Part shown: positions 7,556-23,842 of the stretch, one piece after another
How the letters are laid out: each line of letters starts with the position of its first letter
Position numbering within the stretch: the first letter of the stretch is position 1
From: a virus
IMG/VR virus record: IMGVR_UViG_3300006922_000184
Location: 1 to 23,842 of that record
Direction: 5' to 3' (one strand)
DNA: 23,842 nucleotides
Notes under the pieces: generated by a model
Told to the model about the DNA's origin: nothing
The model's database searches: none
What the model saw: only the letters and a program-made list of their open reading frames with translations
Program-made: the position numbers and the translations under genes

Positions 7556-7830
7556 GATTGTGTAATGTGGAAGTGTTAACGAGTAACATTGCTATTATGT
7601 AGCATCTCAGAGGATTTGTCAAATCACTGTGTGGAACTCAGAAAATCGTCCCTGTGTTGTTGACAGTCTCTCGGTTGATATGTTACGCTCCAAGGTAACT
7701 ACAAATAGAGACAAAACAGAGTATTTAGACATCTATCAGGAGAGGTATTCTGAACGTAACTATGTTTATTTAAGTATTTAAATAATTCACAGAAATGTGG
7801 AAAACTCTCCGCAAACTGTGGAAAACTCTA
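7427..7830. repeat. Cluster of six TGTGGAA boxes, including three exact TGTGGAAAACTCT copies (DnaA-box-like)
   Basis: Six same-orientation boxes lie at 7427, 7475, 7566, 7630, 7796 and 7817, plus TGTGGAG at 7439. The 13-mer TGTGGAAAACTCT is exact at 7427-7439, 7796-7808 and 7817-7829; the last two are 21 bp apart. Read on the minus strand, the core is TTTTCCACA, one base from the bacterial DnaA box TTATCCACA and, as far as I recall, the form used by cyanobacterial DnaA. An AT-rich tract (7761-7787) adjoins the pair. This fits an origin or operator region; function is inferred. Confidence 0.6.
7556..7827. promoter_or_regulatory. Gene-free leader/origin-like region with late-promoter-like octamers
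   Basis: I see no credible gene in these 272 nt. On the minus strand there are three 7/8 matches to the late octamer NATAAATA: TCTAAATA (7722-7729), CTTAAATA (7767-7774) and TTTAAATA (7775-7782). The AT-rich block 7761-7787 could instead be a DNA-unwinding element next to the TGTGGAAAA pair. The stretch probably contains the promoter for the run of tiny genes at 7555-6910. Confidence 0.4.
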
Positions 7831-9392: not shown

Positions 9393-9713
9393 TCAGAGGT
9401 CGAATTCTTTATACTTAGCGATGTATTGTGTGGTGTCATCGTTAACATACTCTTCGATCAATTGCTTGCACTCACATACAGTGTCAGCACCAAAGATACG
9501 ATCGTAGATGAACACACCCTCCTTAATCTCATTGCGTTGGTTAACACGATATCTGGGAGGATTAGGATTTCCGATGTGCTCACCATCAAAATCTTCGGTG
9601 ATAGTGAATGCAGCGAGGCGACGATCGTTGTGCCAGATTGAATCCTCGCTAATCCAGATGTCTTCACAATAGTGAATGAAATCTCTGCGGATTGTCTTCT
9701 CGATGATAAGCAT
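9393..9713 (-). CDS. Hypothetical protein (106 aa)
   Basis: A hydrophilic acidic protein beginning MLIIEKTIRRDFIHYCEDIW. It has charged strands (AAFTITEDFDGEHIGNPNPP) and a C-terminal helical part (CECKQLIEEYVNDDTTQYI). There is no transmembrane segment and no motif I can name. It ends about 30 nt before promoter cassette C and follows the 43-aa membrane protein by about 36 nt. The coding frame has clear phage-like composition and good length, so the gene is real; the function is unknown. Confidence 0.75.
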   Translation of the reverse strand: MLIIEKTIRRDFIHYCEDIWISEDSIWHNDRRLAAFTITEDFDGEHIGNPNPPRYRVNQRNEIKEGVFIYDRIFGADTVCECKQLIEEYVNDDTTQYIAKYKEFDL

Positions 9714-9749
9714 GATCAGTGAAATGTGTGGGTCTTGTGTGTTGTGATT

Positions 9750-9881
9750 CTACATTGAATCGATCTGACGTTGAATAGTTTCGTTACGTTCCTCAATCAT
9801 ATCGACGAGAGAGGAATCCATCAGATCAATTAGAAAGTTTACCCCTAACAGGATAATGATAGCGGAGAGTGCAATACGCAT
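9750..9881 (-). CDS. Tiny single-pass membrane protein (43 aa)
   Basis: The frame starts MRIALSAIIILLGVNFLI, a clear hydrophobic helix of about 16 residues after a positively charged start, followed by an acidic-amphipathic tail (DSSLVDMIEERNETIQRQ). The topology suggests an N-terminal anchor with the tail in the cytoplasm or periplasm. It lies 13 nt after the stop of the 59-aa gene and in the same operon. Tiny membrane proteins of this kind are common in T4-like phages and may act on the host envelope. No family was recognised. Confidence 0.65.
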   Translation of the reverse strand: MRIALSAIIILLGVNFLIDLMDSSLVDMIEERNETIQRQIDSM

Positions 9882-9894
9882 GATTAAGTGTTAA

Positions 9895-10074
9895 TCAGAG
9901 GGACATCATGAATTCAGCAATTGCTTCATCATATTCTTCCTTAGTTTCAAATGTACGACCGTGAATAGTGCGGGGATATTCCGCAACGTCGCGATCACTG
10001 ATTGATACATAGCAATCAGTTTCATCGTAACCCATATCAACGAGGTTTTGAATGTAAGGATTGGAAATTGTCAT
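9895..10074 (-). CDS. Small acidic protein (59 aa), hypothetical
   Basis: Translation from the ATG at 10074-10072 gives MTISNPYIQNLVDMGYDETD, then a central CYVSISDRDVAEYPRTIHGR and a C-terminal helix FETKEEYDEAIAEFMMSL. The frame is open further upstream, but that extension is basic, runs into the preceding gene and looks non-native, so the internal ATG is preferred. The RTxxGRxFxTxEEYDEAIAEF pattern is a short strand-turn-helix of unknown role. Confidence 0.7.
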   Translation of the reverse strand: MTISNPYIQNLVDMGYDETDCYVSISDRDVAEYPRTIHGRTFETKEEYDEAIAEFMMSL

Positions 10075-10115
10075 GTTAGTGAGATTCTTGAAGAGTGGGT
10101 ATGATTTAGTGGTGC

Positions 10116-10301
10116 TCAGTTTGATGCCTCCATGAACACATCGTAGAAGCAATCGAACGCCGCTGGATCATGACAGAATGAAGAGATTCCGCTTTGATCA
10201 CACATCCAATCGTATGCCATATCGATGTCCGCACCAGTGCCAAGCACGAACGAATCGAGACCGCGTAGAGCGTTGATGAAATCGGAGTCGTTGAGAAGCA
10301 T
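10116..10301 (-). CDS. Small acidic protein (61 aa), hypothetical
   Basis: It starts MLLNDSDFINALRGLDSFVL and continues TGADIDMAYDWMCDQ, ending FDCFYDVFMEASN. It is an all-helical, acidic protein resembling a small cyanophage family known to me only as hypothetical. The reading frame is open upstream to 10397, but that part holds promoter cassette B, so the internal ATG after the promoter is the better start. The leader is about 25 nt. First gene of its mini-operon. Confidence 0.75.
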   Translation of the reverse strand: MLLNDSDFINALRGLDSFVLGTGADIDMAYDWMCDQSGISSFCHDPAAFDCFYDVFMEASN

Positions 10302-10322
10302 TTGAGTTGTGTTCGTTTGTCT

Positions 10323-10395
10323 TGAATCAATTGTAGCAGATCTGGGGGCGCTGCCAACGTCAAACCCCGATATTGGGTACAGTTGCTGGATTGTC
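10323..10395 (-). promoter_or_regulatory. Promoter cassette B (sigma70-like plus ACCCAATAT box)
   Basis: On the minus strand: -35 TTGGCA (10357-10352), 16-nt spacer with GCGCCCCCAGAT, -10 TACAAT (10335-10330), then TGATTCA. ACCCAATAT lies at 10378-10370, 34 nt before the -10, within CAACTGTACCCAATAT. Aligned with cassette A, the two share most positions over about 73 bp, far more than chance for intergenic DNA. Drives the 61-aa gene at 10301. Confidence 0.7.
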
Positions 10396-10398
10396 ACA

Positions 10399-10989
10399 CT
10401 ACCAAAGTGTGGGAACTGGCGTTAGATTGCTGATGCTGATTTCTTTATAGTTATCTTTCACAATTCCTTTGGTGACATCATCAATGTCAAAGAATAGGTC
10501 GATTGAATCCACTGCCCCATGATATTGACGTTGCAAGACATCATCGATCTTGGTGCGACTCTTAGCACTCAAAACATCATCGAAACCAGTCACATTGCCT
10601 GCTGTGTTGAAACGAGGTGCAAGGCGAGGGAGAACACTAACGAAGATAATCTTCTCGATGGAATTACACTCGGGAGCGTAATACAAACGCGCCGCTTCAC
10701 CAATAGTGGTATTTGCATAGTTCTTGATATTTTTGTTGACATTGCTATTAATTGCTTTGGCAAGGATTGCAACGCGAAGTTCACCATCTTTGTCAAATCC
10801 TGCGATGTCAATATCAAACGTTCCACCGAATGCATCTTCGGGGAGTTTATATTCAAACTTCCAATCATACTCAGCGAGGTGAGTATTAGCGTTCAAAATC
10901 TCATTGAGCAACGCTTGATGCAGCACCTCAGTACGTTTGGAGGAGCGTACATTCTGAAAGGATGTTGTGAGAAAGTCTTCGAGAATCAT
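10399..10989 (-). CDS. Hypothetical protein (196 aa) with a degenerate PD-(D/E)XK nuclease-like pattern
   Basis: The product begins MILEDFLTTSFQNVRSSKRT. Residues 21-80 read as helix with E30, strand FEYKLPED, then FDIDIAGFDKDGELRVAILAKAI (split here: D59 and D61 in FDIDIAGF, K78 in VAILAKAI). This is the order of the PD-(D/E)XK restriction-endonuclease core (E in helix, D at strand 2, E-x-K on strand 3), but the expected acid two residues before K78 is L76. It may be an inactive or altered nuclease, a DNA-binding derivative, or unrelated. The C-terminal half (IIFVSVLPRLAPRF, later SIDLFFDID) is alpha/beta. The stop falls within a hairpin CACACT/AGTGTG at 10395-10411. Confidence 0.7.
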   Translation of the reverse strand: MILEDFLTTSFQNVRSSKRTEVLHQALLNEILNANTHLAEYDWKFEYKLPEDAFGGTFDIDIAGFDKDGELRVAILAKAINSNVNKNIKNYANTTIGEAARLYYAPECNSIEKIIFVSVLPRLAPRFNTAGNVTGFDDVLSAKSRTKIDDVLQRQYHGAVDSIDLFFDIDDVTKGIVKDNYKEISISNLTPVPTLW

Positions 10990-11024
10990 GGGAGGAAGGT
11001 GATGAATAGTGGACGAAGTATGAA

Positions 11025-11210
11025 TCAGAAAGGGTTAGACCAAGACTCGTATTTCTTCATTGTGATGTAACCTTCCCTGCAAAGTGAGTCAGTATAGTAT
11101 GACCACTCCAAACGCTTAGCAACAGCATCGGTCGCCATCTTTGTGCCCTTAGTTGTCACTTTCCAGTTGTAGCGAAACTGTTGCAGTGCTTGTGCTTTGG
11201 TGATTGTCAA
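11025..11210 (-). CDS. Small basic protein (61 aa), TTG start
   Basis: The start is TTG at 11210-11208, preceded by AAGGA about 8 nt upstream, giving M-TITKAQALQQFRYNWKV. It continues TTKGTKMATDAVAKRLEWSY and ends YESWSNPF. It is basic with several Trp and Tyr and probably helical (a KxQALxxFxxNW segment then DAVAKRLEWSYYTDSLC). It is the first gene after promoter cassette A. I recall similar short proteins in cyanophages with no known role. The rare start codon may lower its expression. Confidence 0.7.
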   Translation of the reverse strand: MTITKAQALQQFRYNWKVTTKGTKMATDAVAKRLEWSYYTDSLCREGYITMKKYESWSNPF

Positions 11211-11227
11211 AGTGTGTCCTTTGCTGA

Positions 11228-11301
11228 TGAATCAATTATAGTCCATTGGGGGTGCCCTGTATACGGGTCAACCCCATTTTGGGTACAGTTGTCCCACTGT
11301 C
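11228..11301 (-). promoter_or_regulatory. Promoter cassette A (TATAAT plus ACCCAAAAT box)
   Basis: The minus strand carries -10 TATAAT (11240-11235) followed by TGATTCA as in cassette B, a spacer with GGCACCCCCA, and a weaker -35 (TATACA, 17-nt spacing). ACCCAAAAT at 11284-11276 sits 35 nt before the -10, in CAACTGTACCCAAAAT. A second strong hexamer, TTGACC, lies further upstream and overlaps the conserved part. It drives the 61-aa gene at 11210 and starts right at the stop of the 49-aa gene. Confidence 0.65.
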
Positions 11302-11449
11302 ACAAGGTTTGTTGATATTCTCGCAATGCTTCGATAATAATAGATTTCAGTTCAATTCTCTCTTGATCAGTGAAGATAGTGCGTGTCTTTACTGGCATGG
11401 GTGCATAACTACTAGGTTTCTTCTTTGTACCTTTGCCAGGTAATGACAT
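11300..11449 (-). CDS. Small basic protein (49 aa), hypothetical
   Basis: The frame starts MSLPGKGTKKKPSSYAPMPV and ends RTIFTDQERIELKSIIIEAL-REYQQTL. A lysine-rich flexible N-terminus is followed by one amphipathic helix. Upstream, CAGGGC lies close to the ATG but there is no classical Shine-Dalgarno. It lies 20 nt after the 86-aa gene's stop and ends at promoter cassette A. It may be a small nucleic-acid- or protein-binding peptide; the function is unknown. Confidence 0.65.
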   Translation of the reverse strand: MSLPGKGTKKKPSSYAPMPVKTRTIFTDQERIELKSIIIEALREYQQTL

Positions 11450-12407: not shown

Positions 12408-12989
12408 TTACTGGTCCACTTCGGCAGGTGTCACAGCAAGATTGAAACTTAGTGTCATTCTGTTATTGTCATTATTCTGCATTCGTACACCATGACGAAC
12501 AAAAGCAGGGAACAACAATAAGTCTCCTTCTTTAACATCAGGTTCCACAATGTGAGGTTGCTCAAATATATGTGTGTAACCAAGGATTGTGTGATCTAAG
12601 TTCATGTTTTCAAAGTAGAACTTACCGTCCTTCTTCTCATCAAAACTAACAAAGATGACACCAGAAAAGTTAATGAAATCAGGGAAGTTTACGTGGTTAT
12701 GTGGTTCTTGTGAGCAACCATTGTTGTACACATTCAACCATGAATTCACAACTTCAATATTCACATTGCGTGGGAAGTATTGAAATAGGTAGGGATACAG
12801 GAAATCAACTAGTTCCTGCGGATCAATGACATCAGACTCTTCAAAATGCGTCGTCTGTACATTACAATTCCAGCGCCCATCAGTGTCCCTAAGTAGATGT
12901 TTGGCGCTCTCCAAAAGACGACCAAACACTTCTTGATGATTGTATACGTGTGCTTGGTAATACTTGATCGGGAACAATGTCGTTTGCAT
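12408..12989 (-). CDS. Putative Fe(II)/2-oxoglutarate oxygenase (TIGR02466-like), 193 aa
   Basis: Counting from MQTTLFPIKYYQ (ATG 12989-12987), the core is GCSQEPHNHVNF (H97/H99), FSGVIFVSFDEKKDGKFYF, EGDLLLFPAFVRHGV (H166) and NNRMTLSFN (R177), the expected iron and 2-oxoglutarate ligands. The N-terminal LFPxxYY is the usual beginning of this family, which favours this start; ATGs at 13049 and 13025 extend the frame into the lysozyme gene. It is closely similar over its whole length to the oxygenase at 14770-15363 (shared WNC, NVY, SQE, KDGKF), so the two are paralogues. It overlaps the lysozyme frame by about 100 nt. The substrate is unknown. Confidence 0.85.
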   Translation of the reverse strand: MQTTLFPIKYYQAHVYNHQEVFGRLLESAKHLLRDTDGRWNCNVQTTHFEESDVIDPQELVDFLYPYLFQYFPRNVNIEVVNSWLNVYNNGCSQEPHNHVNFPDFINFSGVIFVSFDEKKDGKFYFENMNLDHTILGYTHIFEQPHIVEPDVKEGDLLLFPAFVRHGVRMQNNDNNRMTLSFNLAVTPAEVDQ

Positions 12990-13479
12990 GGTTGATAACA
13001 ACTTCAAATTTGGATCGGTAGTCATAAGCGTAGGTGGTGCGATTTCCATGGATTCCCCAACCTAACCAAGGATATGCATGTGTCATATAGTATTCAATTG
13101 TATGACCGAACGTCTTCAAATAGAGTTCATATTCCATCCACTGTGGTTCATTTACCATGTACCTAAGTTGTGTACTAAGTGTTGATGGACTGCCACCATA
13201 TTTGGCAGCAAAGTCACCTAGTCCACGATATCTATTGATGGAGGTCCATTGAATCAGACCATATCCACCACGTAGACATTGATCATAGGGCACGATTGCT
13301 CCACCCTCACATATATTAGGTTTGAATCGTGACTCTTGTTGAATGTTACCAAGCACAACAGCGAGAGCATTTTGGTCTTTAATGCCCCTTTGCTGTAAGA
13401 ATTCTAGGGTTTGTTGTTCATGTGAAGTACATTCAGCACACTCAATCACTGGTGTTGGTGGTAGTTCTGCGTAAATCAT
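12889..13479 (-). CDS. Phage tail lysozyme (196 aa)
   Basis: This looks like a Phage_lysozyme2/tail-lysozyme protein that hydrolyses peptidoglycan during infection. The core is NALAVVLGNIQQESRF (E49 the likely catalytic acid), NICEGGAIVPYDQC, LRGGYGLIQWTSINRY (70-84), TQLRYMVNE and YPWLGWGIHGNRTTYAYDY (137-154). The family's domain normally ends near that last segment. Here about 35 further residues (from VINHANDIVP to ERQTST) run over the start of the downstream oxygenase in another frame and may be non-native. ATG 13479 gives MIYAELPPTPVIECAEC. No signal peptide, as for a virion enzyme. Confidence 0.85.
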   Translation of the reverse strand: MIYAELPPTPVIECAECTSHEQQTLEFLQQRGIKDQNALAVVLGNIQQESRFKPNICEGGAIVPYDQCLRGGYGLIQWTSINRYRGLGDFAAKYGGSPSTLSTQLRYMVNEPQWMEYELYLKTFGHTIEYYMTHAYPWLGWGIHGNRTTYAYDYRSKFEVVINHANDIVPDQVLPSTRIQSSRSVWSSFGERQTST

Positions 13480-14236: not shown

Positions 14237-14773
14237 TCATTTTGTGTGACTGTTGTCAAAGTGTACACCCTTGTGGGGTGCAATAGCACCTAATGTGATA
14301 CGAATGTCATTAGTCGGAGGATTTCCATCATGCACTATTCTACTATCAAAGACAATAATTCTTCCTTGTTTGAATTGAATTTCCGTTCCATCTTCAAAAA
14401 CCGTAGAACCATCATTCCCATAAGCATGGTAAATGATAGATGTCGCCTTATGATTGAAGTCGGTATGCATCTGAGACTCATGACCAGGGTTTTGTGCATT
14501 AACCAATAACCGATGGATGTGAGATAGAGGGAGGTCCTTACATATGTCTTTAAGGACACATTCGTTGAAATACGCGAAGAACCAATACCATGGTGTTTCT
14601 GATGTAAACTCATTGTCTCGGATAACTGTGTTGCCCCAGAATCGTGCTTTTGCATAATCACCATATGGTGTGTTGTTGTAGAAGTAAGGAAAATCAGTGG
14701 ATAAGTATTCACCCACGTCATCAATCATCCAATCAGGGAAATACCCATCAATTACTTTAATGTTATCGTTCAT
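14237..14773 (-). CDS. Putative Fe(II)/2-oxoglutarate oxygenase (prolyl-4-hydroxylase-like), 178 aa
   Basis: This has the textbook H-x-D...H...R layout: H103-T-D105 in SQMHTDFNHKATSIIY, the GSTVFEDGTEIQF strand pair, QGRIIVFDSRIVHDGNPP with H148, and R158 in DIRITLG. The length (178 aa) matches a stand-alone catalytic domain. The start MNDNIKVIDGYFPDWMID has the usual 'I-x-D-x-F/L' entry of phage P4H-like proteins. The ATG overlaps the preceding oxygenase by 4 nt. It ends the helicase-oxygenase-oxygenase operon. The substrate could be a protein residue, nucleic acid or small molecule; the sequence does not decide. Confidence 0.88.
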   Translation of the reverse strand: MNDNIKVIDGYFPDWMIDDVGEYLSTDFPYFYNNTPYGDYAKARFWGNTVIRDNEFTSETPWYWFFAYFNECVLKDICKDLPLSHIHRLLVNAQNPGHESQMHTDFNHKATSIIYHAYGNDGSTVFEDGTEIQFKQGRIIVFDSRIVHDGNPPTNDIRITLGAIAPHKGVHFDNSHTK

Positions 14774-15363
14774 TTGACTATAAAATTAGCGGATACTGTA
14801 ATTCTGGCAACACCAGTGTTATTCTTTTGTGAGGTAACTTGATGATGTAGATATGATGGGAAGATGACTAAATCACCCTCAGATATATCGGGGAACCAGG
14901 TATTGGTGCATGGATAATGTCTACTGAAATACCCATGATGTACATCTTGCGATGGATCGTAGAATACAAATTTACCATCCTTCTCAGGATCATACTGAAC
15001 AAAGTAAGCACAACTAAATGTACAATTATCACCACCAGTATGTGTATGTATCTCTTGGGAATCACCCTGTTTGTATACATTTATCCATGCTTCTGTCATT
15101 TCTATGGTGGCAGTGGGTTTGCCACCCAATTGCATGTGCATGTCCATGAGATTATCGGAAATCTCATTGTTGAACATTTGCCACGAAAAGTCCTCATCAT
15201 TTGTATCACTTTCAAATGAACTACTGACAGTACAGTTCCACTCACTGGGTTGTGATATGTTTGCTGTACCAAGTTCATAGAGTAGCATATCTTTGAGGTG
15301 CTTATGTCTAGCAACCTCACCATGATAATACCATTTAGGAAATAATGTCTGAACTTTACCCAT
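14770..15363 (-). CDS. Putative Fe(II)/2-oxoglutarate oxygenase (TIGR02466-like), 197 aa
   Basis: MGKVQTLFPKWYYHGEVARH opens with the LFPxxYY signature. Candidate ligands are H106/H108 in SQEIHTHTGGDN, H173 or H174 in EGDLVIFPSYLHHQV, and R187 in GVARITVSANF. DPEKDGKFVFYDP forms the central strands. It is a close paralogue of the oxygenase at 12408, sharing WNC, NVY, SQE and KDGKF at matching places. One base overlaps the helicase stop (TAATG) and four bases overlap the next oxygenase, so all three are translated together. Confidence 0.86.
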   Translation of the reverse strand: MGKVQTLFPKWYYHGEVARHKHLKDMLLYELGTANISQPSEWNCTVSSSFESDTNDEDFSWQMFNNEISDNLMDMHMQLGGKPTATIEMTEAWINVYKQGDSQEIHTHTGGDNCTFSCAYFVQYDPEKDGKFVFYDPSQDVHHGYFSRHYPCTNTWFPDISEGDLVIFPSYLHHQVTSQKNNTGVARITVSANFIVK

Positions 15364-16607
15364 TATGCAACCAACGAAAGAGGAGGAATACCCTGCACAA
15401 AGATAGCATCAACTACATTTTGCAGGCGTTTGATGACATGCTTGCCATAAGTCCTGTGGACGGGAACAGTAACGAAACCTGTGGGTTTGTTATAGAAACC
15501 CCACTGACATGCAGTGAGTTCACCAGACTTTAAGCGAGCAGCATCATCTTTATCTAGGCGAATCACGCGACCGATAGTCTGTGCCATCTCCACAACGTTG
15601 AGGTTACGAAGTAAGATAGTGTGAGTAAGACCAGGGACGTTGATACCCTCAGAGAGAATAGAATAGTGGAAGACGATGAACTTGCGTCCTTCTTCTTTGC
15701 CCCACTGTGTCAACGTGTCGAAGAATACTTCACGAGATACTTTGACACCATCAACGATTGCACCAAACTTAGATGTAACGTGCATCACATTATAACCACG
15801 ATCTTTGAGTTCTGCAAGCAATGTTGTCTTGCCGATCATGTTACCGAGGATGCGACTAGATGGCACAGCAACTAGAACCTTAGCAGCACATGTGTCGTCA
15901 AGGTTATCAAGAATGTCACGAACAGTGCCAGCGTCAATGTCATGAACGTTGTGCTTTGTACGCTCGTGATCAGTCTCGAAAGGAACAATCGTAGGAGGGA
16001 GGATGTGACCTTGCTCGATCAGTTCAGGAGCAGGGACATTACATAGGACACCACCATAGATGTCACTGTTGTTCATGCTACGATCATGCTTACGTGCAAC
16101 ACGAGGAGTTGCAGTAAAGAAGTAGGCACGATCTGCAACCATAGATGTTGCAGCAGTACCAACAAAGAACTGCTTGCTTACACTATTGTGTGCTTCGTCA
16201 AAGTATGCACAAGAGATATCGATGCCACTATCAATCACTTTGGGGAGAGAATGATAGGTAGTAAAGATGATGCAAGACTCATCAGCAGCACGAGCGGTGT
16301 CATTGAAGAGTGCAATCTTCTCAGGTTTGGTAGACTTGAAATAGCGAGTCTCTCCACTGTGTGCATGACAGACATGCGTCCAAGTGCCACTGATGTGCTG
16401 CATGAACTCTTCACAGAGTTGATTAGCAAGCAAGATACGTGGAGCAACAACAACTAGGGTGCGATTGCCAGTCGAAAGCAACTCGATAGCGTGCTTGATC
16501 ATGATGATGGTCTTACCACCGCCAGTAGGCACGATGACCTGACCTTTGTCAGCACTCTGCATGGCGTCAAGAGCGCGTTGCTGGTGAGGGCGAAGGGTGA
16601 TGGTCAA
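15363..16607 (-). CDS. SF2 DNA/RNA helicase, DEAH-box (414 aa)
   Basis: This is an ATP-dependent helicase of superfamily 2, of the UvsW/type III restriction Res-like group. Walker A is PTGGGKT (27-33), motif Ia VVVAPRILLANQL, motif II DEAH (137-140), motif III FTATP (164-168), motif V ILSEGINVPG and motif VI QTIGRVIRLD. A Q-motif-like LRPHQQRAL begins the protein. It is shorter than T4 UvsW (503 aa), lacking an N-terminal accessory domain. In T4-like phages such enzymes act in recombination-dependent replication. The start is TTG at 16607-16605, about 20 nt after the predicted transcript start. Coupling to two oxygenases is unusual. Confidence 0.9.
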   Translation of the reverse strand: MTITLRPHQQRALDAMQSADKGQVIVPTGGGKTIIMIKHAIELLSTGNRTLVVVAPRILLANQLCEEFMQHISGTWTHVCHAHSGETRYFKSTKPEKIALFNDTARAADESCIIFTTYHSLPKVIDSGIDISCAYFDEAHNSVSKQFFVGTAATSMVADRAYFFTATPRVARKHDRSMNNSDIYGGVLCNVPAPELIEQGHILPPTIVPFETDHERTKHNVHDIDAGTVRDILDNLDDTCAAKVLVAVPSSRILGNMIGKTTLLAELKDRGYNVMHVTSKFGAIVDGVKVSREVFFDTLTQWGKEEGRKFIVFHYSILSEGINVPGLTHTILLRNLNVVEMAQTIGRVIRLDKDDAARLKSGELTACQWGFYNKPTGFVTVPVHRTYGKHVIKRLQNVVDAIFVQGIPPLSLVA

Positions 16608-16625
16608 GTTCTGCGTTTCTGTCGA

Positions 16626-16638
16626 TACAACTATTATA
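16626..16638 (-). promoter_or_regulatory. -10 promoter element for the helicase operon
   Basis: The minus strand has a perfect TATAAT at 16638-16633, with the likely start of transcription near 16626, about 20 nt before the TTG start of the helicase. No good -35 is found at 16-18 nt, because that position is filled by the terminator stem and T-tract; an activator or extended element may replace it. Confidence 0.55.
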
Positions 16639-16642
16639 CAGC

Positions 16643-16666
16643 AAAAAAGGGCGTTTGACGCCCTTT
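16643..16666 (-). terminator. Intrinsic terminator, perfect 9-bp stem plus T6
   Basis: Read on the minus strand, AAAGGGCGT (16666-16658) pairs with ACGCCCTTT (16654-16646) around a CAA loop, and the T run extends to TTTTTT. The last stem bases are part of the T-tract. It lies 22 nt after the stop of the 109-aa gene and directly before the helicase promoter, separating the two transcription units. Confidence 0.85.
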
Positions 16667-16687
16667 GTGACAGTATGCTGATTGTCT

Positions 16688-17017
16688 TTATCGATCTTCC
16701 AGTGCTGGCAACATATCGTTACCTGGGTGGTCGTTAGTCTTGCCCCTATATGCTTTCTTATATTGAAAGTGTGCAGGATCAAGTTCAAGATCATCCCAAT
16801 CTTTGGGATAACATAACAAACAACACTTGTTCATTGGATTCCTAGAACCAGGAGGATTAGGTTTCTCACTGACACAAATAGTGATGTATTCATCATCGAT
16901 AAAGTTAATATATCCTTCATGACCTTTCCATCTTACCTGTGCCCCAACAGACATAGATTTGATGATGTTTCTAATCTCGATTGCTGGTGCTTCGGCAATA
17001 AACAGTGGAGTAGTCAT
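16688..17017 (-). CDS. Hypothetical cyanophage protein (109 aa)
   Basis: It begins MTTPLFIAEAPAIEIRNIIK, then VGAQVRWKGHEGYINFIDDE-YITICV (an SH3-like barrel pattern), then EKPNPPGSRNPMNKCCLLCY and PKDWDDLEL, and ends with KTNDHPGN. The C-C-x-x-C cluster and later His could bind a metal. I recall this arrangement in many T4-like cyanophages as a conserved protein without known function. It is followed by an intrinsic terminator and closes the long oxygenase transcription unit. Confidence 0.8.
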   Translation of the reverse strand: MTTPLFIAEAPAIEIRNIIKSMSVGAQVRWKGHEGYINFIDDEYITICVSEKPNPPGSRNPMNKCCLLCYPKDWDDLELDPAHFQYKKAYRGKTNDHPGNDMLPALEDR

Positions 17018-17023
17018 AGAAGT

Positions 17024-17515
17024 TTAGATGAAGTTTGCGTTAATCAAGATTCTATTCTTATGCTGGACTGGTGAATGACCAGTATGCATATGTTTACCAT
17101 TAAATGTTAACAACCTATTTGCTTTGGGTGTAACACGAACGATGTCGTGATCATTCTGCTCTCCCAAAATAACAGTGTCGCCATCAGTATCGTTGACATA
17201 GTAAATGCACACAGTGTGTGGTTCTTTTGTGTCTACATGAAAGTCATGTCGATAACCTTCACTATTATATAGTGTCATATCTGCACGTACTCTCAGACAT
17301 TCTTTGGCATTAACAGTTGATTGCATTTTATCAACCAACTGTGCAAAGTCTGGATCACCCTCTGATGTTAACCAGTGATTGAATCCATGTGCCTGAATAT
17401 CTTTGTTGCCATGTGTCAGTGTGTGTTGATAATACCAAGGGAACTCCCATCCCATCAACACAGTCTGCAAGTGTTGATGATAATCAGTGTCTAGAAAATC
17501 ATCAATGATTCTCAT
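17024..17515 (-). CDS. Putative Fe(II)/2-oxoglutarate oxygenase (prolyl-4-hydroxylase-like), 163 aa
   Basis: Counting from MRIIDDFLDTDYHQHL (ATG 17515-17513), the ligands are H93-V-D95 in RHDFHVDTKEPH, H144 in TFNGKHMHTGHSP and R155 in HKNRILINANF. DTDGDTVILGE forms the central strands. The upstream extension of this frame overlaps the 62-aa gene and was rejected; the 'RIIDDFL' start is typical of the family. It is a paralogue of the 18377-18931 oxygenase (shared FPWY, VRVR/LRVRA, YYVN.(S/T)DGDT). Its partner JmjC gene lies just upstream, separated by one small gene. Confidence 0.87.
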   Translation of the reverse strand: MRIIDDFLDTDYHQHLQTVLMGWEFPWYYQHTLTHGNKDIQAHGFNHWLTSEGDPDFAQLVDKMQSTVNAKECLRVRADMTLYNSEGYRHDFHVDTKEPHTVCIYYVNDTDGDTVILGEQNDHDIVRVTPKANRLLTFNGKHMHTGHSPVQHKNRILINANFI

Positions 17516-17690
17516 GTTTGAGATGTAAGGTGGTCGCAACTTCATCAATCAGATCCCTGGTAGTTTCGGGCAGTTCTCCATACTTAGTGTGATATTCTTT
17601 CTGTAAACTGAATAGAGCATCACGCAGTAATGTTTTCTGGTCGTTGTTCAATAGTGGAGACTTTAAGAACATGGTCATGGTGGCAGACAC
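17502..17690 (-). CDS. Small helical protein (62 aa), hypothetical
   Basis: The frame MSATMTMFLKSPLLNNDQKT-LL... continues FSLQKEYHTKYGELPETTRD-LIDEVATTLHLK. It begins with GTG at 17690, 7 nt after the JmjC stop, with possible ATG starts at 17678 and 17672. It is helical and of mixed charge. It overlaps the following oxygenase start by 14 nt. It separates members of an otherwise continuous JmjC-P4H pair, suggesting a later insertion or a specific accessory role. No family recognised. Confidence 0.65.
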   Translation of the reverse strand: MSATMTMFLKSPLLNNDQKTLLRDALFSLQKEYHTKYGELPETTRDLIDEVATTLHLKHENH

Positions 17691-17697
17691 GCACTAT

Positions 17698-18405
17698 TTA
17701 ACGATTTACTTTTAGAGTATAGCGGGTTCTGTCAGAACAGCAACACCGTTTAGGGCACCAAATCGGAAAAGATAATGAAAGTCGTGGACCTGTGCCATGT
17801 TTGGTGTTGTGATACGCTCTCGCAGGAAAGTATAGCACATCTCCTGGGGTTAACACTGTATCAATTGCTATTGTCAGTTCTTCCTGACATGGGTGATAGG
17901 GTGGGTCTGATCCTTCTATCAACATTGATGCTCGTTCATTATATACTTGCCATCTAGTCTCACCATCCATCTGTATAATAAAATTAACAGGTTTGTCATA
18001 GTGTGGATGAAATGATGGGTGGTTATTGTTAGCACCATTGGTAATAAACATATGACAATCACCACAACCATCAAATGCATTCTCCATGTGGTGTAATATT
18101 TCATCAACTTCTGGTCTACCATGACCATACTTACATATGTTGATGGTATAACCCTCGTTGGCAAGTTCAAACAGTTCTTTCTTCTTAGGCACGTATGTAT
18201 AGAACCATGGTTCTTCTACCATATCTAAGTCCATACGCTTACGATCATCACCAATGACAGTGATGACATGACTCCATGGATTATTAAGGGCATTCTCGGC
18301 ATCCTGCCATGTTAGAAATGGCGTGACAGCATTTCTCCACACTCGTGGACGATCGTCTGTCTGATATAACTCAGGATTAAGAAACTCTGGGTTTAAAATT
18401 AACAT
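17698..18405 (-). CDS. JmjC/cupin-type Fe(II)/2-oxoglutarate oxygenase, 235 aa
   Basis: It starts MLILNPEFLNPELYQTDDRP and carries a JmjC/cupin-4-like core: HPHYDKPVNFIIQMDGETRW (H135-Y-D137 as the H-x-D pair), Q-V-Y-N-E strand, then LTPGDVLYFPARAYHNT (H199) and GPRLSLSFPI. Such proteins hydroxylate residues in ribosomal or other proteins or small molecules. It is a close paralogue of the gene at 18900 (shared PELY/PSLF, VWR(N/E)A, NNPW, DGET.W.VY.ER, L(T/S)PGDV.Y.P.R.YH). A Cys cluster (CPKRCCCSD) near the end is a local oddity. Overlaps the upstream oxygenase by 29 nt. Confidence 0.84.
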   Translation of the reverse strand: MLILNPEFLNPELYQTDDRPRVWRNAVTPFLTWQDAENALNNPWSHVITVIGDDRKRMDLDMVEEPWFYTYVPKKKELFELANEGYTINICKYGHGRPEVDEILHHMENAFDGCGDCHMFITNGANNNHPSFHPHYDKPVNFIIQMDGETRWQVYNERASMLIEGSDPPYHPCQEELTIAIDTVLTPGDVLYFPARAYHNTKHGTGPRLSLSFPIWCPKRCCCSDRTRYTLKVNR

Positions 18406-18931
18406 TCAAGGCAATCCTATATCCTGTGCTAGGTGATGATGAAGCATGTAATACATTGCCATCGAATACAACCATCTTACCACGCTCAGGTGATATTCTG
18501 ATCTGACAATCTGGTTGAAATATACTCTCACATGCATTAAACATGATAGTATCACCATCACTCGCGTTTACATAATACAATGCAGTTATGTGTTCTTCTT
18601 CAAAGTCTACATGTGGACAGTGATGTGGTAACTTATCAGGTAATAGACACCCTATCCTAACACGAACTATATCTGTGAATTCTTGTTCAGCAGCAGCAGA
18701 CATTAACCTCAGTGCAGACTCAAACACATCATAGTATTGAGACACTGGTTGATAGTCCATCACTAATACATGTGAGAATGAACTATTATTAAATGCACCC
18801 TCGTATGGTGTCGGACCATCAACAAATGTAGTCTCTTTGACAAGATACCAAGGAAACTGCTGTTGAGTTACTATATCTTCTATCTGATCAACAATAATAT
18901 CAGGTAGAGGTTTCGTCGAACTCAATAACAT
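18377..18931 (-). CDS. Putative Fe(II)/2-oxoglutarate oxygenase (prolyl-4-hydroxylase-like), 184 aa
   Basis: Counting from MLLSSTKPLPDIIVDQIEDI (ATG 18931-18929), ligands are H107-V-D109 in HHCPHVDFEEEH, H162 in VVFDGNVLHASSSP and R172 in GYRIALNVNF. NASDGDTIMFNACES forms the central strands. The next ATG upstream gives an extension inside the JmjC gene and is less likely. It overlaps the JmjC gene before it by 32 nt and the JmjC gene after it by 29 nt. With its upstream JmjC partner it forms one of two similar gene pairs. Confidence 0.87.
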   Translation of the reverse strand: MLLSSTKPLPDIIVDQIEDIVTQQQFPWYLVKETTFVDGPTPYEGAFNNSSFSHVLVMDYQPVSQYYDVFESALRLMSAAAEQEFTDIVRVRIGCLLPDKLPHHCPHVDFEEEHITALYYVNASDGDTIMFNACESIFQPDCQIRISPERGKMVVFDGNVLHASSSPSTGYRIALNVNFKPRVS

Positions 18932-19619
18932 ATTGTCGGCGGTCGCTGGGTACGTCACAAGGATACATGCAAGGGATAGATAATGATAAACGCTTACTAC
19001 CTGGGAAGGGTTTATGATATGTTCTTGATGGAATATACATCACATCACCAGGTGACAGAGTGACATCGAGAGCAATATGTAACTCTTGCCCTACTTTGTC
19101 TGGTAAATATGGTTCATCAGTCATTTCGATCAGACTACTACATCTCTCCTCATATACATTCCAATGTGTTTCACCATCAATCTGACATATAAAGTTTGGA
19201 GGTAGATCCCAGTGAGCACCAAATGATTTACTACCTGATTTAGCAGCACCAAAGATGTGTGCATCACAGTTACAATCAAACAACGCTTCGATATTCTCTA
19301 ATAGATTATCTACTGCTGGATTGTAATGACCATACTGTTCAATGATAAATGTATGACCTTCATTCAATGCACGAAATAGTTCTTCTTTATATGGCACACC
19401 TGTTTCATACCACACTTCAAACTTTTCAGGTAACATCAAACGACGACCCTCCATGTTCATCACCTGCGTTCTATAATACCATGGATTATTGAAGCAATGT
19501 GTAACTGTATCCCAATTGACATACTGTGTGGGATTAGGTAATGCCTCTCTCCATACCATTGGTTTATCACCACATTGGAAGAGAGATGGATTTAAGAAAG
19601 GTAAAATTAGTTTATTCAT
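18900..19619 (-). CDS. JmjC/cupin-type Fe(II)/2-oxoglutarate oxygenase, 239 aa
   Basis: The start MNKLILPFLNPSLFQCGDKP (ATG 19619-19617) overlaps the upstream stop by ATGA, better than the ATG nine bases earlier. The core is FGAHWDLPPNFICQIDGETH (H136-W-D138), the W-N-V-Y-E-E-R strand, LSPGDVMYIPSRTYHKPF (H202) and KRLSLSIPC. It is a paralogue of the gene at 17698. Short Cys runs (CNCDAH) occur before the core. It is probably a protein or small-molecule hydroxylase; the substrate is unknown. Confidence 0.84.
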   Translation of the reverse strand: MNKLILPFLNPSLFQCGDKPMVWREALPNPTQYVNWDTVTHCFNNPWYYRTQVMNMEGRRLMLPEKFEVWYETGVPYKEELFRALNEGHTFIIEQYGHYNPAVDNLLENIEALFDCNCDAHIFGAAKSGSKSFGAHWDLPPNFICQIDGETHWNVYEERCSSLIEMTDEPYLPDKVGQELHIALDVTLSPGDVMYIPSRTYHKPFPGSKRLSLSIPCMYPCDVPSDRRQYVIEFDETST

Positions 19620-20272
19620 GTTGTCCATTCGCCCATAGTAGGATCGTGAGGATATCCAGCAAAGTTCATGCTGATAGCATTACGCTCACATTTAGTATTT
19701 GGTTGCGTTCTATGCATCAACCAGGAAGGAAACATGACATACTCATGTACACCCATAATCATAGTCTTCCAGTCATAGTCATAACCAGATTCGCGTGACC
19801 AATCATCATATGATGATGCAAGTGGGCAGTGTCTGAGTATATGTTCTAGTGGATTCTTGAACTGTAAGTGACCACCAGCACTATCTTTTGACAAATAGTA
19901 TACCAATGACACATGAGATTTGCCACGTCCATTAACATGACAGTGCTCACCAGTGCTATCACCTTCGTAGTGTAAGTTTGACCACATGCTATCCATATAC
20001 ATGTGATAGTCTGTACGATAGTGAAGAGTATTCACCCAGTAGTCTTTAACATCATTCAAGATAGGTAGTGTCAACCAATCGAATGCTACATCTTGAAATA
20101 GACAATCACCACCAGGTAAGTCAGCAGTAGTCTTACCTGATTCTAATGCCCATGTATTTTCCTTTGCCTTATCAAAGTAACGCCAAAGAACTTCATTAGT
20201 TTCTTTCTGTTGTATCTTAGTTGGGACTATATGTCCACGCCTGATGGGTACACTAAACAGATTCAGGTTCAT
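19616..20272 (-). CDS. Putative Fe(II)/2-oxoglutarate oxygenase (TIGR02466-like), 218 aa
   Basis: Counting from MNLNLFSVPIRRGHIVPTKI (ATG 20272-20270), candidate ligands are H110/H112 in STGEHCHVNGRGKSH, H187 in YVMFPSWLMHRTQPN and R197 in CERNAISMNF. The central strands are SLVYYLSKDSAGGHLQFKNP. The frame continues upstream, but that sequence lies in the preceding gene. The 20-nt overlap with the upstream oxygenase and ATGA overlap with the next one keep the six-gene array continuous. Confidence 0.84.
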   Translation of the reverse strand: MNLNLFSVPIRRGHIVPTKIQQKETNEVLWRYFDKAKENTWALESGKTTADLPGGDCLFQDVAFDWLTLPILNDVKDYWVNTLHYRTDYHMYMDSMWSNLHYEGDSTGEHCHVNGRGKSHVSLVYYLSKDSAGGHLQFKNPLEHILRHCPLASSYDDWSRESGYDYDWKTMIMGVHEYVMFPSWLMHRTQPNTKCERNAISMNFAGYPHDPTMGEWTT

Positions 20273-20972
20273 TAGTTTGACGATTGTATGGTGTGACATC
20301 GACAGAGATTTCATTATCTTTGATAATGTCCATCATATCTTTCTTTGTTCTTACAGGAATGAAGTTGAATGAGATACTAATACGTTCCTCATCAGTTTCA
20401 TTCTCACGTACACCATGACCCACCCATGCAGGGAATAACATAAGTCTACCTTGTACAGGTGGATATGCCCATGTAGAGTGTGTATGTGGCACCTCTGCTG
20501 TACTCATATCCTCAGATGTACCAAGAGAATGTATTACATAACCCTCAATAGCATTCCTATGAAATGTAAGTTTACCCACTGGTCCTGGTGGTACTGTTAC
20601 ATAGAAAGCACCAGACATTACAGCACCTGGATGTGTGTGAACTTCATTGTATCCACCCTTACCATTAATATTGATCCAGACATTTGCATATGCAAGAGTA
20701 GTAGTTTGAGAACCAAAACTATCAAATGCCTCAGATGCTTTCTGTTTAATCAATAGCAGTAGTTTCTTGAACTCATCACCATCCAGATCTGGATCATTGA
20801 CGATCTCTTCACCCAAGAAATCAGGAGATTGATAGTTCAACAATCCCCGATTACTTCGTGCTTTACCCTCCATATTCATGGCAGTATCTACACAGATACG
20901 CCCCATCTCTTCAAGATCAATGTCAAGATCAACCCACCAAATAGGGGTGGGAAAGATATAATCTAAATTCAT
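20253..20972 (-). CDS. Putative Fe(II)/2-oxoglutarate oxygenase (TIGR02466 family), 239 aa
   Basis: This is the most typical TIGR02466 member here: MNLDYIFPTPIWWVDLDIDL at the start, then SPDFLGEE, ANVWININGKGGYNEVHTHP (H112/H114), GAVMSGAFYVTVPPGPVGKL, QGRLMLFPAWVGHGV (H186) and EERISISFNF (R197). About 35 residues follow the core (TKKDMMDIIKDNEISVDVTP and beyond), a charged tail. The ATG shares one base with the stop of the upstream 146-aa gene (TAATG). It is the first oxygenase after the halogenase group. Confidence 0.9.
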   Translation of the reverse strand: MNLDYIFPTPIWWVDLDIDLEEMGRICVDTAMNMEGKARSNRGLLNYQSPDFLGEEIVNDPDLDGDEFKKLLLLIKQKASEAFDSFGSQTTTLAYANVWININGKGGYNEVHTHPGAVMSGAFYVTVPPGPVGKLTFHRNAIEGYVIHSLGTSEDMSTAEVPHTHSTWAYPPVQGRLMLFPAWVGHGVRENETDEERISISFNFIPVRTKKDMMDIIKDNEISVDVTPYNRQTNEPESV

Positions 20973-21412
20973 TATTTAAGTTTGTTTAGTGCCTGAGATC
21001 CTTCGTTATCAGATTCCCAAGTAGCATACTTTTCGTAACCAGGACGGGTACGTACTTTAATTTTATGCTTCTCTTCAATCTCTTTCTGAATCCATGGTTC
21101 TGCTTCTTCTTTCAGAACATATACACGATACAAGTTAAGAGTTTCTAGACCACCTTCGATCTTAACAATTTCATCACGGAGTTGATTCATCTCAGTGAAA
21201 TCTACTCGTGTTTCTTGTTGTTCAAACTCCATGCTAGTCAATGATGCAGTCAGTGCAGCATAACGGTCATACTTAGTACGATGCTGATGCATCAAGTTAC
21301 GCCACAGATCATCAAATGTCTTGACAGCATTCTCAGGTTTGTCTACCTCTTCAATAGTTTCAGGTTCCCATTCAGGAAGATCTGATTCGTTGATGATCAC
21401 TTCTTCTGACAT
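20972..21412 (-). CDS. Acidic helical protein (146 aa), hypothetical
   Basis: The start ATG 21412-21410 has the strong Shine-Dalgarno AAGGAG (CAAGGAGTAATT-ATG) and gives MSEEVIINESDLPEWEPETI. The acidic N-terminus is followed by helices (TFDDLWRNLMHQHRTKYDRY, then DFTEMNQLRDEIVKIEGGLE) with coiled-coil character, and a charged tail. Similar proteins lie near tail-fibre genes in T4-like phages in my memory, possibly as assembly factors. It overlaps the halogenase stop region closely and is coupled to the first oxygenase (TAATG). No enzymatic motif. Confidence 0.75.
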   Translation of the reverse strand: MSEEVIINESDLPEWEPETIEEVDKPENAVKTFDDLWRNLMHQHRTKYDRYAALTASLTSMEFEQQETRVDFTEMNQLRDEIVKIEGGLETLNLYRVYVLKEEAEPWIQKEIEEKHKIKVRTRPGYEKYATWESDNEGSQALNKLK

Positions 21413-21414
21413 AA

Positions 21415-23007
21415 TTACTCCTTGTAAATAGTTTGTTTTTGGTACTGGTAGGATGATGGTAAGGTTTGACACCAATCATACATCCTTTGGTTCCAGTTGT
21501 CAATCTCAGTCGATGCACCATGTAATGCATGTTGATCTCTTATGGGTGATAACCCATTCTGAATTCTTTTCAGTCTGAGAGTATGATTATTTAGGGGGTT
21601 GAATCCCATGCCTGCACCAACATATCTAAGTCCATCATTATGAGATGGATCACCTAACCATTCATATACTACATGCTTCTCACTAGAATATCTTACGAAC
21701 AAGTTATCTAGTTCTGCTGTTGACATATCATAGTTAACTTCATTAGCAACATATTTCCAGTAGGGAGTATCACGAGCAGAGAAGGCATAGTGAGCACAGA
21801 TAAAGTTCTTGAATCCTTCAATCTCTAAGTCTGCGACCAAGTTTAGCATGTCAACTTCAATCTTAGGAACAAATCCATCACGACCAGCAAGGTTATTACA
21901 TAGTCTAATGATCTGTTCATGCGTAGTAAGTAGACCAGTTGCTTCTAATGGTTCTACGAAACAGTTAGAGAGACCAACTGCACACACATTCTTTACCCAT
22001 GATCTTTTATGCTTACCATTTCTAAATGGTACATGCTTAAATGATCCGATATTGTCAGCACGTTTGATACCTCGTGTACGTGCAACATAGGCATGTAGAT
22101 CTTCCTCTGCTTTCTCTTTTGTAGAGAATCCAGAAGAGTGTACATATCCTACCCCAGATCTCTCCCATAGTGGTACATCCCACACCCAACCATTCTCAAT
22201 GGCAGTACAGTTTGTGGTGTTAGTTACTTCTGTCTCAGGATCTTTGTGCGGCACATGACATGTTACTGCACGATCATTAAGTAAACAACCACCACCATCT
22301 ACGTGGAATGATACAAACTCTTCACCCATAAACTGTTCAAGTAATAGTGACTTGAACCCTGTGCAATCAATGTAGAGATCATATTCTAATCTCCGATCGT
22401 CATCAGTTAACAGTGTTGTGATATATCCTTGTTCGTCTTTCTCACAACCGACAACATTACCTTGTAGATAATTCAAACCAGGACAATAGTTATTCTTCAA
22501 CCACTGCCCAAACTTGATTGCATCCATGTGGTATGCAGTGTCTGAATCATAGTTCCAATTATCATCCTCACCTGTTAGTTTATTGTTCCAAGCAAGATGA
22601 CCTACTGAATTGTGTGACCTAGCAAATGTATCTCTACTATATTTCTCTGGTTGTTGTAAGTTAAGAGCAAACCATGACATCCAACCATGTGGATATATCT
22701 CATCGATGATAGGAACTGCTTTACCAAAAGGATAGTCCCAAGTCTCACCTTTCTTGTAGAAATCGTTGAACCTGATATTAACTTTATATGTCGATCCAGT
22801 CTCCTTCATCCACATCTCATCTTTAAGATCGAGGATATGAAAGAAGTCATTTATTTGACCCAACGTAGACTCCCCAACACCAATTACAGGATGATTGGGA
22901 GACTCAATGAGTGACGTTTTAACATGTGGACATAATTTAATTAAGGCGGCAGCAGTCATCCAACCAGCAGTACCACCGCCAACAACTAATACATTACGAA
23001 TGTTCAT
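21415..23007 (-). CDS. prnA: FAD-dependent tryptophan halogenase (PrnA-like), 530 aa
   Basis: Flavin-dependent halogenases use FADH2, O2 and halide to chlorinate or brominate indole or related rings. All marks are visible: the FAD-binding GGGTAGW (10-16), GVGEST (43-48), the catalytic Lys in STYKVNIRF (K75, matching K79 of PrnA), YIDCTGFKS, the halogenase signature W-x-W-x-x-P (GWVWDVP, W274/W276), and the active-site Glu segment EPLEATG (352-358). The length (530 aa) equals that of PrnA/RebH-type enzymes, so it is complete. A flavin reductase is needed but not seen here, so a host reductase may serve. The ATG lies 5 nt after the 155-aa gene. The true substrate is unknown. Confidence 0.92.
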   Translation of the reverse strand: MNIRNVLVVGGGTAGWMTAAALIKLCPHVKTSLIESPNHPVIGVGESTLGQINDFFHILDLKDEMWMKETGSTYKVNIRFNDFYKKGETWDYPFGKAVPIIDEIYPHGWMSWFALNLQQPEKYSRDTFARSHNSVGHLAWNNKLTGEDDNWNYDSDTAYHMDAIKFGQWLKNNYCPGLNYLQGNVVGCEKDEQGYITTLLTDDDRRLEYDLYIDCTGFKSLLLEQFMGEEFVSFHVDGGGCLLNDRAVTCHVPHKDPETEVTNTTNCTAIENGWVWDVPLWERSGVGYVHSSGFSTKEKAEEDLHAYVARTRGIKRADNIGSFKHVPFRNGKHKRSWVKNVCAVGLSNCFVEPLEATGLLTTHEQIIRLCNNLAGRDGFVPKIEVDMLNLVADLEIEGFKNFICAHYAFSARDTPYWKYVANEVNYDMSTAELDNLFVRYSSEKHVVYEWLGDPSHNDGLRYVGAGMGFNPLNNHTLRLKRIQNGLSPIRDQHALHGASTEIDNWNQRMYDWCQTLPSSYQYQKQTIYKE

Positions 23008-23011
23008 TTAA

Positions 23012-23479
23012 TTATTCAGGAGCATATTTACCAATTTTGAACTCTTGCTGAACATCATCAGGCATCTGTTCTGGTGAGAACCATGCAGGCATAGATTCAT
23101 CATGTGGGAATGGTTCATCAGGATTAACTGAGTTGCCATTCTCATCATACTGCACTGGGGGAAGAGTGTCTTTCACGTTCTTAACGTGCTTAAAGAACTC
23201 ACCTTCTTCGGTGAGTGTACCATTCTTGATGTCATTGTAGATCATCGCTAATTGTTGACCAGGATCACCATATGCTACCACACGTAGCATTTCAGGATCA
23301 TGTGCTTCAAAGTCTGGAATCCACTCACCTAGTTCTAATTTCCATAGGTTAGTTGCATCATCAGGAATATCCATCCATTTCATGGATGCGCCTGGACCTG
23401 TGTAGATCTCAAACTCTTCGCCTGATTCAACAATGTCTGTAATGAATCCGTCAACGCGGACTAATGCTCTTTGTGCCAT
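23012..23479 (-). CDS. Acidic protein downstream of tail-fibre-like gene (155 aa), hypothetical
   Basis: It begins MAQRALVRVDGFITDIVESG, then FEIYTGPGASMKWMDIPDDA and LWKLELGEWIPDFE. The first 60 residues resemble short beta modules used in tail-fibre accessory proteins; the rest (YDENGNSVNPDEPFPHDESM) is Pro/Asp/Glu-rich and acidic. It begins 6 nt after the stop of the glycine-rich gene and ends 5 nt before the halogenase, so it shares their transcript. It could be a fibre chaperone or a virion component. Not recognised. Confidence 0.75.
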   Translation of the reverse strand: MAQRALVRVDGFITDIVESGEEFEIYTGPGASMKWMDIPDDATNLWKLELGEWIPDFEAHDPEMLRVVAYGDPGQQLAMIYNDIKNGTLTEEGEFFKHVKNVKDTLPPVQYDENGNSVNPDEPFPHDESMPAWFSPEQMPDDVQQEFKIGKYAPE

Positions 23480-23485
23480 GATAGT

Positions 23486-23842
23486 TTAATCGAATTCGTA
23501 AACAACAACAATACCTTGGCGACCGTCGCCACCACGCTCACTGTTCCTACCTGAGGAACCGCCAGCACCATAGGCAGCATGGTTTCTATGCCTTTGTGCC
23601 CACTGCTGCTGTCTATGAGCAGTTGGAGCAGAACCACCCCAGAAGGATGTCCCACCATGACCTAGACCAGGAGGGTTTCTATGCCCTTGACCAGATCCAC
23701 CATAGATCTTAACAGATCCTTGGTTAGGGTTGCCACCAGTGGCACCCTCGTGCTGCTGACGACGGTTTGCGCCTTGTCCACCACCAGATGAGCAGTAGTT
23801 ACCAAAGGAGGATGTACCACCATTACCACCACGACCAGAGTA
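23486..23842 (-). CDS. C-terminus of a glycine-rich tail-fibre/adhesin-like protein (partial)
   Basis: Only the last 118 residues are in the window; the start is beyond 23842. It opens with YSGRGGNGGTSSFGNYCSSG, contains GGTSFWGGSAP and several (Q)GHRN/RHRN segments, and ends GGDGRQGIVVVYEFD. About a third of residues are Gly, with many Ser, Asn, Gln and His. The repeated GG-T-S-S/F-F-G units and the final GI-V-V-V-Y-E strand are typical of glycine-rich tips on tail fibres and adhesins (the polyglycine-rich receptor-binding type). It is probably a host-range determinant. Gene order (adhesin, acidic protein, halogenase, oxygenases) is notable. Confidence 0.8.
   Translation of the reverse strand, partial: YSGRGGNGGTSSFGNYCSSGGGQGANRRQQHEGATGGNPNQGSVKIYGGSGQGHRNPPGLGHGGTSFWGGSAPTAHRQQQWAQRHRNHAAYGAGGSSGRNSERGGDGRQGIVVVYEFD

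Follow-up and report, generated by a model that had tools for sequence, protein, structure and literature searches.

One end of a marine cyanophage fragment encodes the C-terminal part of a glycine-rich tail fiber adhesin, followed by a flavin-dependent halogenase and a run of 2-oxoglutarate (2OG) oxygenases; we propose, with a probability of roughly 0.58, that these genes form a portable cassette and that its enzymes modify the fiber-tip adhesin itself by hydroxylation and halogenation. The fragment ("the window") is the IMG/VR record IMGVR_UViG_3300006922_000184, 23,842 bases analyzed as one strand, and the cassette comprises the adhesin end, the halogenase and six oxygenases (20972-17024). 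The argument draws on what the genes are, how strictly they are linked, how they diverge together, how they are swapped as a block and how one adhesin position covaries with the JmjC oxygenases. The enzymes travel with the adhesin and therefore probably decorate the host-recognizing part of the virus. Roles proposed in the literature are, for the oxygenases, 2OG and nitrogen signaling or DNA repair and, for the halogenase, antibiotic protection (PMC3037559, PMC9146016, PMC9964418); in the open-licence literature we found no proposal of adhesin hydroxylation or halogenation in phages.

Linkage of the Enzymes to the Adhesin

What is new is the strict linkage of the enzymes to the adhesin, not the number of oxygenases. 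A tblastn search of 50,697 phage records with the full-length adhesin of Synechococcus phage S-WAM1 (gp212) found the adhesin in 20 records; the same 20 carry a full-length VirX1-type halogenase (at least 36% identity), and 19 of them carry a JmjC gene. For IMG/VR, two adhesin scans were run, the best 80 of 290–350 relatives per scan were taken, and their loci were searched with profiles built in this analysis. Wherever at least 1 kb was present downstream, a halogenase lay within 3 kb downstream of the adhesin (69/69 and 72/72 loci); these 141 of 141 loci represent 72 clusters at 95% adhesin identity and 25 at 80%. Among the 65 loci with 8 kb available downstream (database phages and IMG/VR together), a halogenase was present in all 65, a JmjC gene in 60 and at least three oxygenases in 64.

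The phrog_1787 protein, encoded directly behind the fiber tip gene, is linked to the adhesin nearly as strictly as the halogenase is, and the order adhesin, phrog_1787 protein, halogenase, oxygenases recurs in S-WAM1, S-SZBM1, P-RSM6, Syn10, S-CREM1, S-RIM44, P-TIM40, Sf-FP1 and Sf-FR1. The conserved-neighborhood search that the first-pass annotation had suggested gives a positive outcome for the core genes, from adhesin and phrog_1787 protein through halogenase and small protein to the oxygenases and JmjC. We regard functional coupling of the adhesin and the enzymes as well supported.

Neither orientation nor location is fixed. In six loci (L212, L227, L228, L238, L239 and L259) the halogenases and oxygenases are encoded on the other strand yet still abut the adhesin genes, and a fixed operon is therefore not the reason for the linkage. 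The cassette is found at two genomic locations, before gp25 (as in S-WAM1) or before gp13 (as in S-RIM44 and Sf-FP1). In some cassettes (L008-L012 and L016) three adhesins are accompanied by as many as four halogenases; JmjC_2 genes also occur away from a window-type adhesin, in Syn30 (L030, 11040-11600) and S-H38 (L029, near 12682).

The adhesin, halogenase and JmjC proteins diverge together: in protein distances from nine phages, the Pearson correlation was 0.94 for adhesin vs. halogenase, 0.95 for adhesin vs. JmjC and 0.93-0.95 among the three overall, whereas agreement with the terminase was lower (0.57-0.65, with 0.65 for adhesin vs. terminase). The phrog_1787 protein follows the adhesin more loosely (r 0.83). 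In S-RIM44, moreover, isolates have or lack the block as a whole. Isolate Np_42_0711 carries the adhesin and the enzyme block; in isolate W2_10_0709 the gp13-side flank is 95-98% identical at the DNA level, but the block is replaced by an unrelated tip of 294 residues and a single PF13759 gene, with neither halogenase nor JmjC at the cassette slot and with part of the long fiber gene still recognizable. In Sf-CH11 the same slot is taken by yet a different glycine-rich tip (PF21722), accompanied by a halogenase and oxygenases of its own.

The Halogenase and the Oxygenases

The product of 21415-23007 (minus strand, as are all the cassette genes and other oxygenases of the window) is, by sequence comparison, a flavin-dependent halogenase of the VirX1 type, with that activity predicted: it matches PF04820 (E value 6e-94) and, over its full length, VirX1 of cyanophage Syn10 (6qgm, E 1.5e-114). 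The motifs VGGGTAGWM, NGWVWDVPLW, STYKVNIRF and FVEPLEATG align with VirX1, and the flavin adenine dinucleotide-binding GxGxxG, the WxW and the catalytic Lys and Glu regions are present; the catalytic residues are those we presume from PrnA-type enzymes. Gkotsi et al. (in 2019) are said to have found that VirX1 iodinates and halogenates many small aromatic substrates in vitro; we know of no established natural substrate or role for it. In tblastn, a match to the halogenase also appeared in four Campylobacter phage records.

A general rule that all viral halogenases are adhesin-linked was considered and set aside: a glycine-rich gene lies within 3 kb of only about half of the VirX1-like halogenases outside the cassette. 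In a separate scan of VirX1-like halogenase loci with enough flank, reversed cassettes included, 20 of 42 had a glycine-rich open reading frame within that distance.

The ten oxygenases and one halogenase of the first-pass annotation proved real, with Pfam support for all ten oxygenases (five PF13759, three PF13640-like and two JmjC_2, PF08007) and ligand motifs in each. The PF13759 proteins are those at 20253-20972 (the first of the cassette, with HxH...H...R), 19616-20314, 14770-15363, 12408-13049 and 7828-8451, all five above the curated cut-off (E 2e-9 to 2e-24). PF13640 is matched above its cut-off at 17024-17548 and 18377-18958 (the latter with an HVD motif) and below it at 14237-14773 (E 6e-4), which matches phrog_274 (E 7e-33) as the other two do. 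The JmjC_2 proteins at 18900-19628 and 17698-18405 match PF08007 at E 2e-16 and 2e-17, respectively, and carry HxD...H; the first, of the ribosomal-oxygenase type, also matches phrog_8014, and its closest solved relatives are the protein hydroxylases MINA53, NO66 and YcfD, together with the protein YxbC. The label "DNA endonuclease V" (DenV), attached by phrog_274 and RefSeq to 14237-14773, 17024-17548 and 18377-18958, was rejected: these proteins match PF13640 and carry HxD...H instead, and they showed no pyrimidine-dimer glycosylase match in Pfam. The same label stands on PF13640-like genes of S-WAM1 and in many of the cyanophage records examined.

The first-pass annotation had described H-x-D/H, distal His and Arg ligands, and metal-ligand motifs are indeed visible in all ten (the PF13640-like and JmjC proteins show HxD, the five PF13759 proteins HxH, and each has a distal His), but the PF13759 members lack the acidic ligand and so depart, as a family, from the classical HxD/E...H iron triad. 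Across related loci, HxD is present in 170/171 PF13640-like and 96/96 JmjC proteins and HxH in 258/259 PF13759 proteins, with the His/Asp ligand positions conserved at 97-99%, the distal His at 98-99% and the Arg at 88-99% per family. HxH is also found in the solved PF13759 relatives 3bvc and 2rg4; it is therefore a trait of PF13759 and no bar to membership, possibly reflecting iron coordination by three histidines or some unusual ligand. The expected double-stranded beta helix was recovered for the PF13759 protein at 20253-20972, the one of the ten that was folded: its good-confidence model (predicted local distance difference test score, pLDDT, 85) matches 3bvc, 2rg4, bacterial prolyl hydroxylases (P4H) and PHD2.

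Two features stressed by the first-pass annotation did not hold up. The number of oxygenases, taken there as remarkable, is ordinary for the group: S-CREM1 carries ten (PMC9964418) and S-SCSM1 carries 24 (PMC9602691), S-WAM1 has about fourteen spread along its genome with five right behind the halogenase, and 18 related phage genomes have 3 to 14 matches each to PF13759 alone and 5 to 15 to phrog_274 (partly the same genes). Nor do all ten form one array; those at 14770, 14237, 12408 and 7828 lie beyond a helicase toward gp25, outside the part whose portability was demonstrated, and have relatives scattered elsewhere in cyanophage genomes. Of the six genes described as an unbroken overlapping run, five do overlap (20972 to 17698); the sixth (17024-17548) follows after 149 bases that are bridged by a 62-codon open reading frame. 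Some of the scattered oxygenases outside the cassette may well have a metabolic or DNA repair role.

The Adhesin and Candidate Modification Sites

The adhesin gene of the window (23486-23842) is cut at its 5' end by the contig edge, leaving the C-terminal part; from its profile match and a relative's model it is predicted to be a receptor binder of the glycine-rich fiber-tip type. It belongs to the family of S-WAM1 gp212, which has a PF21722 (Gly_rich_2) domain and a match to phrog_863 ("tail fiber assembly"). The distal domain, PF21722 and the fold match were found in S-WAM1 gp212 and a relative; the model of that relative (L036, pLDDT 73) is closest to the tail fiber of Pam3 (7ypx, E 1e-7). 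Sequence searches found no solved relative of the adhesin, and the likeness to Pam3 was found by fold only. His, Arg, Gln, Asn, Trp and Tyr abound in the C-terminal loops, which are well conserved within clades.

One position of the adhesin covaries with the JmjC genes. In the motif GAN..QH.G, the position preceding a conserved His is occupied by Gln or Asn in 186 of the 191 adhesin copies that come with JmjC and in 4 of the 38 that do not (61/65 vs. 4/23 when similar copies are merged); the other JmjC-less copies have Arg, Gly, Ser, Ala, Thr or Asp there. Cassettes without JmjC fall into three groups (Sf-FR1-like, L010-like and reversed). The Gln-His pair (178-179 in S-WAM1 gp212, Gln30-His31 of the window fragment, at about 23750-23755) is a candidate JmjC site and a lead for experiment, and the conserved Tyr149 or other tip aromatics are candidate sites for the halogenase, again as leads. 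The number of halogenase copies showed no clear pattern against the tip aromatics when inspected by eye.

A Proposed Function and Its Alternatives

The enzymes would act on the adhesin in the infected cell, before or during fiber assembly: the PF13759, PF13640-like and JmjC enzymes would hydroxylate its side chains and the VirX1-type halogenase would halogenate an aromatic side chain. The modified residues would lie in the distal-tip loops that touch the receptor, and the benefit may be a change in receptor contact or in the stability of the tip. The adhesin as direct substrate, the chemistry, the sites and the benefit are what we infer from the linkage, co-divergence, exchange and covariation described above. 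Those JmjC relatives whose function is known hydroxylate proteins, which favors a protein substrate. The first-pass annotation had suggested a modification system beside the adhesin, acting on virion protein, host surface glycan or peptide, or nucleic acid; protein modification tied to the adhesin is the best reading of it, and nothing that we found pointed specifically to a nucleic acid or host glycan substrate.

Several points weigh against this proposal. No modified residue has been seen, and block transfer at a host-range locus can itself yield close linkage where enzyme and adhesin have no substrate relation. Because the adhesin queries came from copies already linked to a halogenase, and each scan was limited to its best 80 relatives, more distant adhesins that lack the enzymes may exist and the linkage is perhaps overstated for them. 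Many VirX1-like halogenases do not adjoin a window-type adhesin (those of S-MbCM6, P-SSM2 and S-B64 are located away from it) and roughly half have no glycine-rich gene nearby; the enrichment over other genes (20 of 261 in S-WAM1 and Syn10 have a glycine-rich open reading frame within 3 kb) is only indicative because these controls come from two genomes of one virus group. The rank correlations are below the Pearson values, and that of adhesin vs. terminase (Spearman 0.77) departs from the trend. The Gln covariation is a lead only, because the position was picked after inspection, and it is based on three groups of JmjC-less cassettes; the model of the adhesin is of moderate confidence.

The fiber genes-gp25 region is rich in small variable genes, and 2OG oxygenases are scattered elsewhere too, so that the enzymes could be unrelated auxiliary genes in a hyperplastic exchange region that travel with the adhesin by linkage only. 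We consider this rather unlikely, given linkage in 141 of 141 loci, its persistence in reversed orientation and at two backbone positions, and the covariation of an adhesin residue with JmjC. Linkage to a receptor-binding protein would also be explained by a shared host-range function, with the enzymes acting on the host surface (perhaps on the receptor to which the adhesin binds) or on a small molecule or peptide from host or phage, such as an antibiotic-like product; PrnA homologues do halogenate free tryptophan, and antibiotic protection has been proposed (PMC2984593, PMC9964418). No biosynthetic partners recur in the cassettes examined, however, the JmjC_2 relatives act on proteins, and the covarying residue lies in the adhesin, and this explanation strikes us as improbable.

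The target might instead be another virion protein encoded nearby, either one of the other fiber proteins or the phrog_1787 protein, with its nearly halogenase-like linkage; yet the phrog_1787 protein diverges more loosely from the adhesin, and part of the long fiber gene persists in S-RIM44 W2 where the enzymes are gone, which makes such a target quite improbable. Published proposals would have the oxygenases tune host metabolism (2OG and nitrogen signaling) or DNA repair (PMC3037559; PMC9146016), their linkage to the fiber being incidental. For the cassette we find this very improbable; it leaves unexplained the adhesin-specific presence, the halogenase, the JmjC proteins and the swapping of the block. 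If the adhesin is indeed the substrate, a wider picture can be sketched tentatively, and we hold it with less than even confidence: such cassettes may be interchangeable among marine phages, each receptor-binding tip bringing its own halogenases and hydroxylases, with host recognition dependent on halogenated and hydroxylated side chains beyond those of the 20 standard amino acids and with VirX1-type halogenases being adhesin-tailoring enzymes in general.

Other Genes of the Window

Judged by its gene content, the window is a fragment of a T4-like marine cyanophage that runs from the tail fiber adhesin to baseplate gp25. The genes that place it in this group encode the baseplate wedge protein gp25 (3-368), a PAAR-type protein, a 1,477-residue protein, an NlpC/P60 protein and a tail lysozyme. 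The 1,477-residue protein (1274-5707) is phrog_22792, with one stretch that resembles the baseplate wedge subunit phrog_719; a strongly conserved phage protein (phrog_21547, E 3e-97) is encoded at 10399-10989.

On the minus strand, the adhesin end is followed by the phrog_1787 protein (23012-23479), the halogenase, a small protein (20972-21475, with a likely start ATG at 21412) and the five overlapping oxygenases; then come the 149-base gap, the sixth oxygenase, a small gene, the helicase and more oxygenases toward gp25. The profile of the small protein is present in most cassettes, and it matches phrog_20247 weakly. The phrog_1787 protein had no solved relative and no fiber-chaperone match by sequence; from its position it could be expected to be a fiber chaperone.

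S-WAM1 (NC_031944) is nearly collinear with the window, at 77% DNA identity over 69% of a 9.6-kb query. It has the same order of adhesin, phrog_1787 protein, halogenase, small protein, oxygenases, JmjC, helicase, oxygenases and gp25, with one JmjC fewer, and is annotated only with 2OG oxygenases, hypothetical proteins and "DNA endonuclease V."

Related Systems and Significance

Syn10, the source of VirX1, has this cassette too, and there two halogenases adjoin two adhesins. The window halogenase belongs to the same family over its full length; whereas small aromatic compounds are the substrates reported for VirX1 in vitro, a protein substrate is proposed here. The phage JmjC_2 proteins share PF08007 and HxD...H with MINA53, NO66 and YcfD but, at 235-242 amino acids, are little over half the length of the solved proteins and are linked to an adhesin, not a ribosomal protein.

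Among fiber tips, the closest parallels are the glycine-rich tips of Pam3 (gp24, 7ypx) and Salmonella phage S16 (gp38); the relative's adhesin model resembles the Pam3 fiber, and PF21722 is shared. The distal loops of Pam3 have been proposed as its receptor site, and its tip has been likened to S16 gp38 (PMC9608196). The Pam3 tip is described as hypervariable, with no modification reported, whereas the cassette adhesins have distal loops conserved within clades and enzymes alongside.

Enzyme-rich regions near structural genes also occur in other phages. S-SSM7 (L032, 5991-15556) has, between a tail fiber gene and gp13, a halogenase, oxygenases, two Nol-like carbamoyltransferases and heptose and sugar genes, which may amount to a glycan-type decoration of the tip. 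Pelagibacter phage HTVC008M (L031) has a similar arrangement outside the cyanophages: a run of opposite-strand oxygenases beside gp13 (3031-5904) and an oxygenase and a halogenase before the terminase (9421-11380).

The cassette offers a concrete, testable native substrate both for VirX1 and for a class of oxygenases that ranks among the most frequent unexplained genes in cyanophages. If the proposal is true, phages widen the chemistry of their receptor-binding proteins by means of dedicated enzymes, and both the prediction of host range from sequence and the recombinant production of phage adhesins would change.

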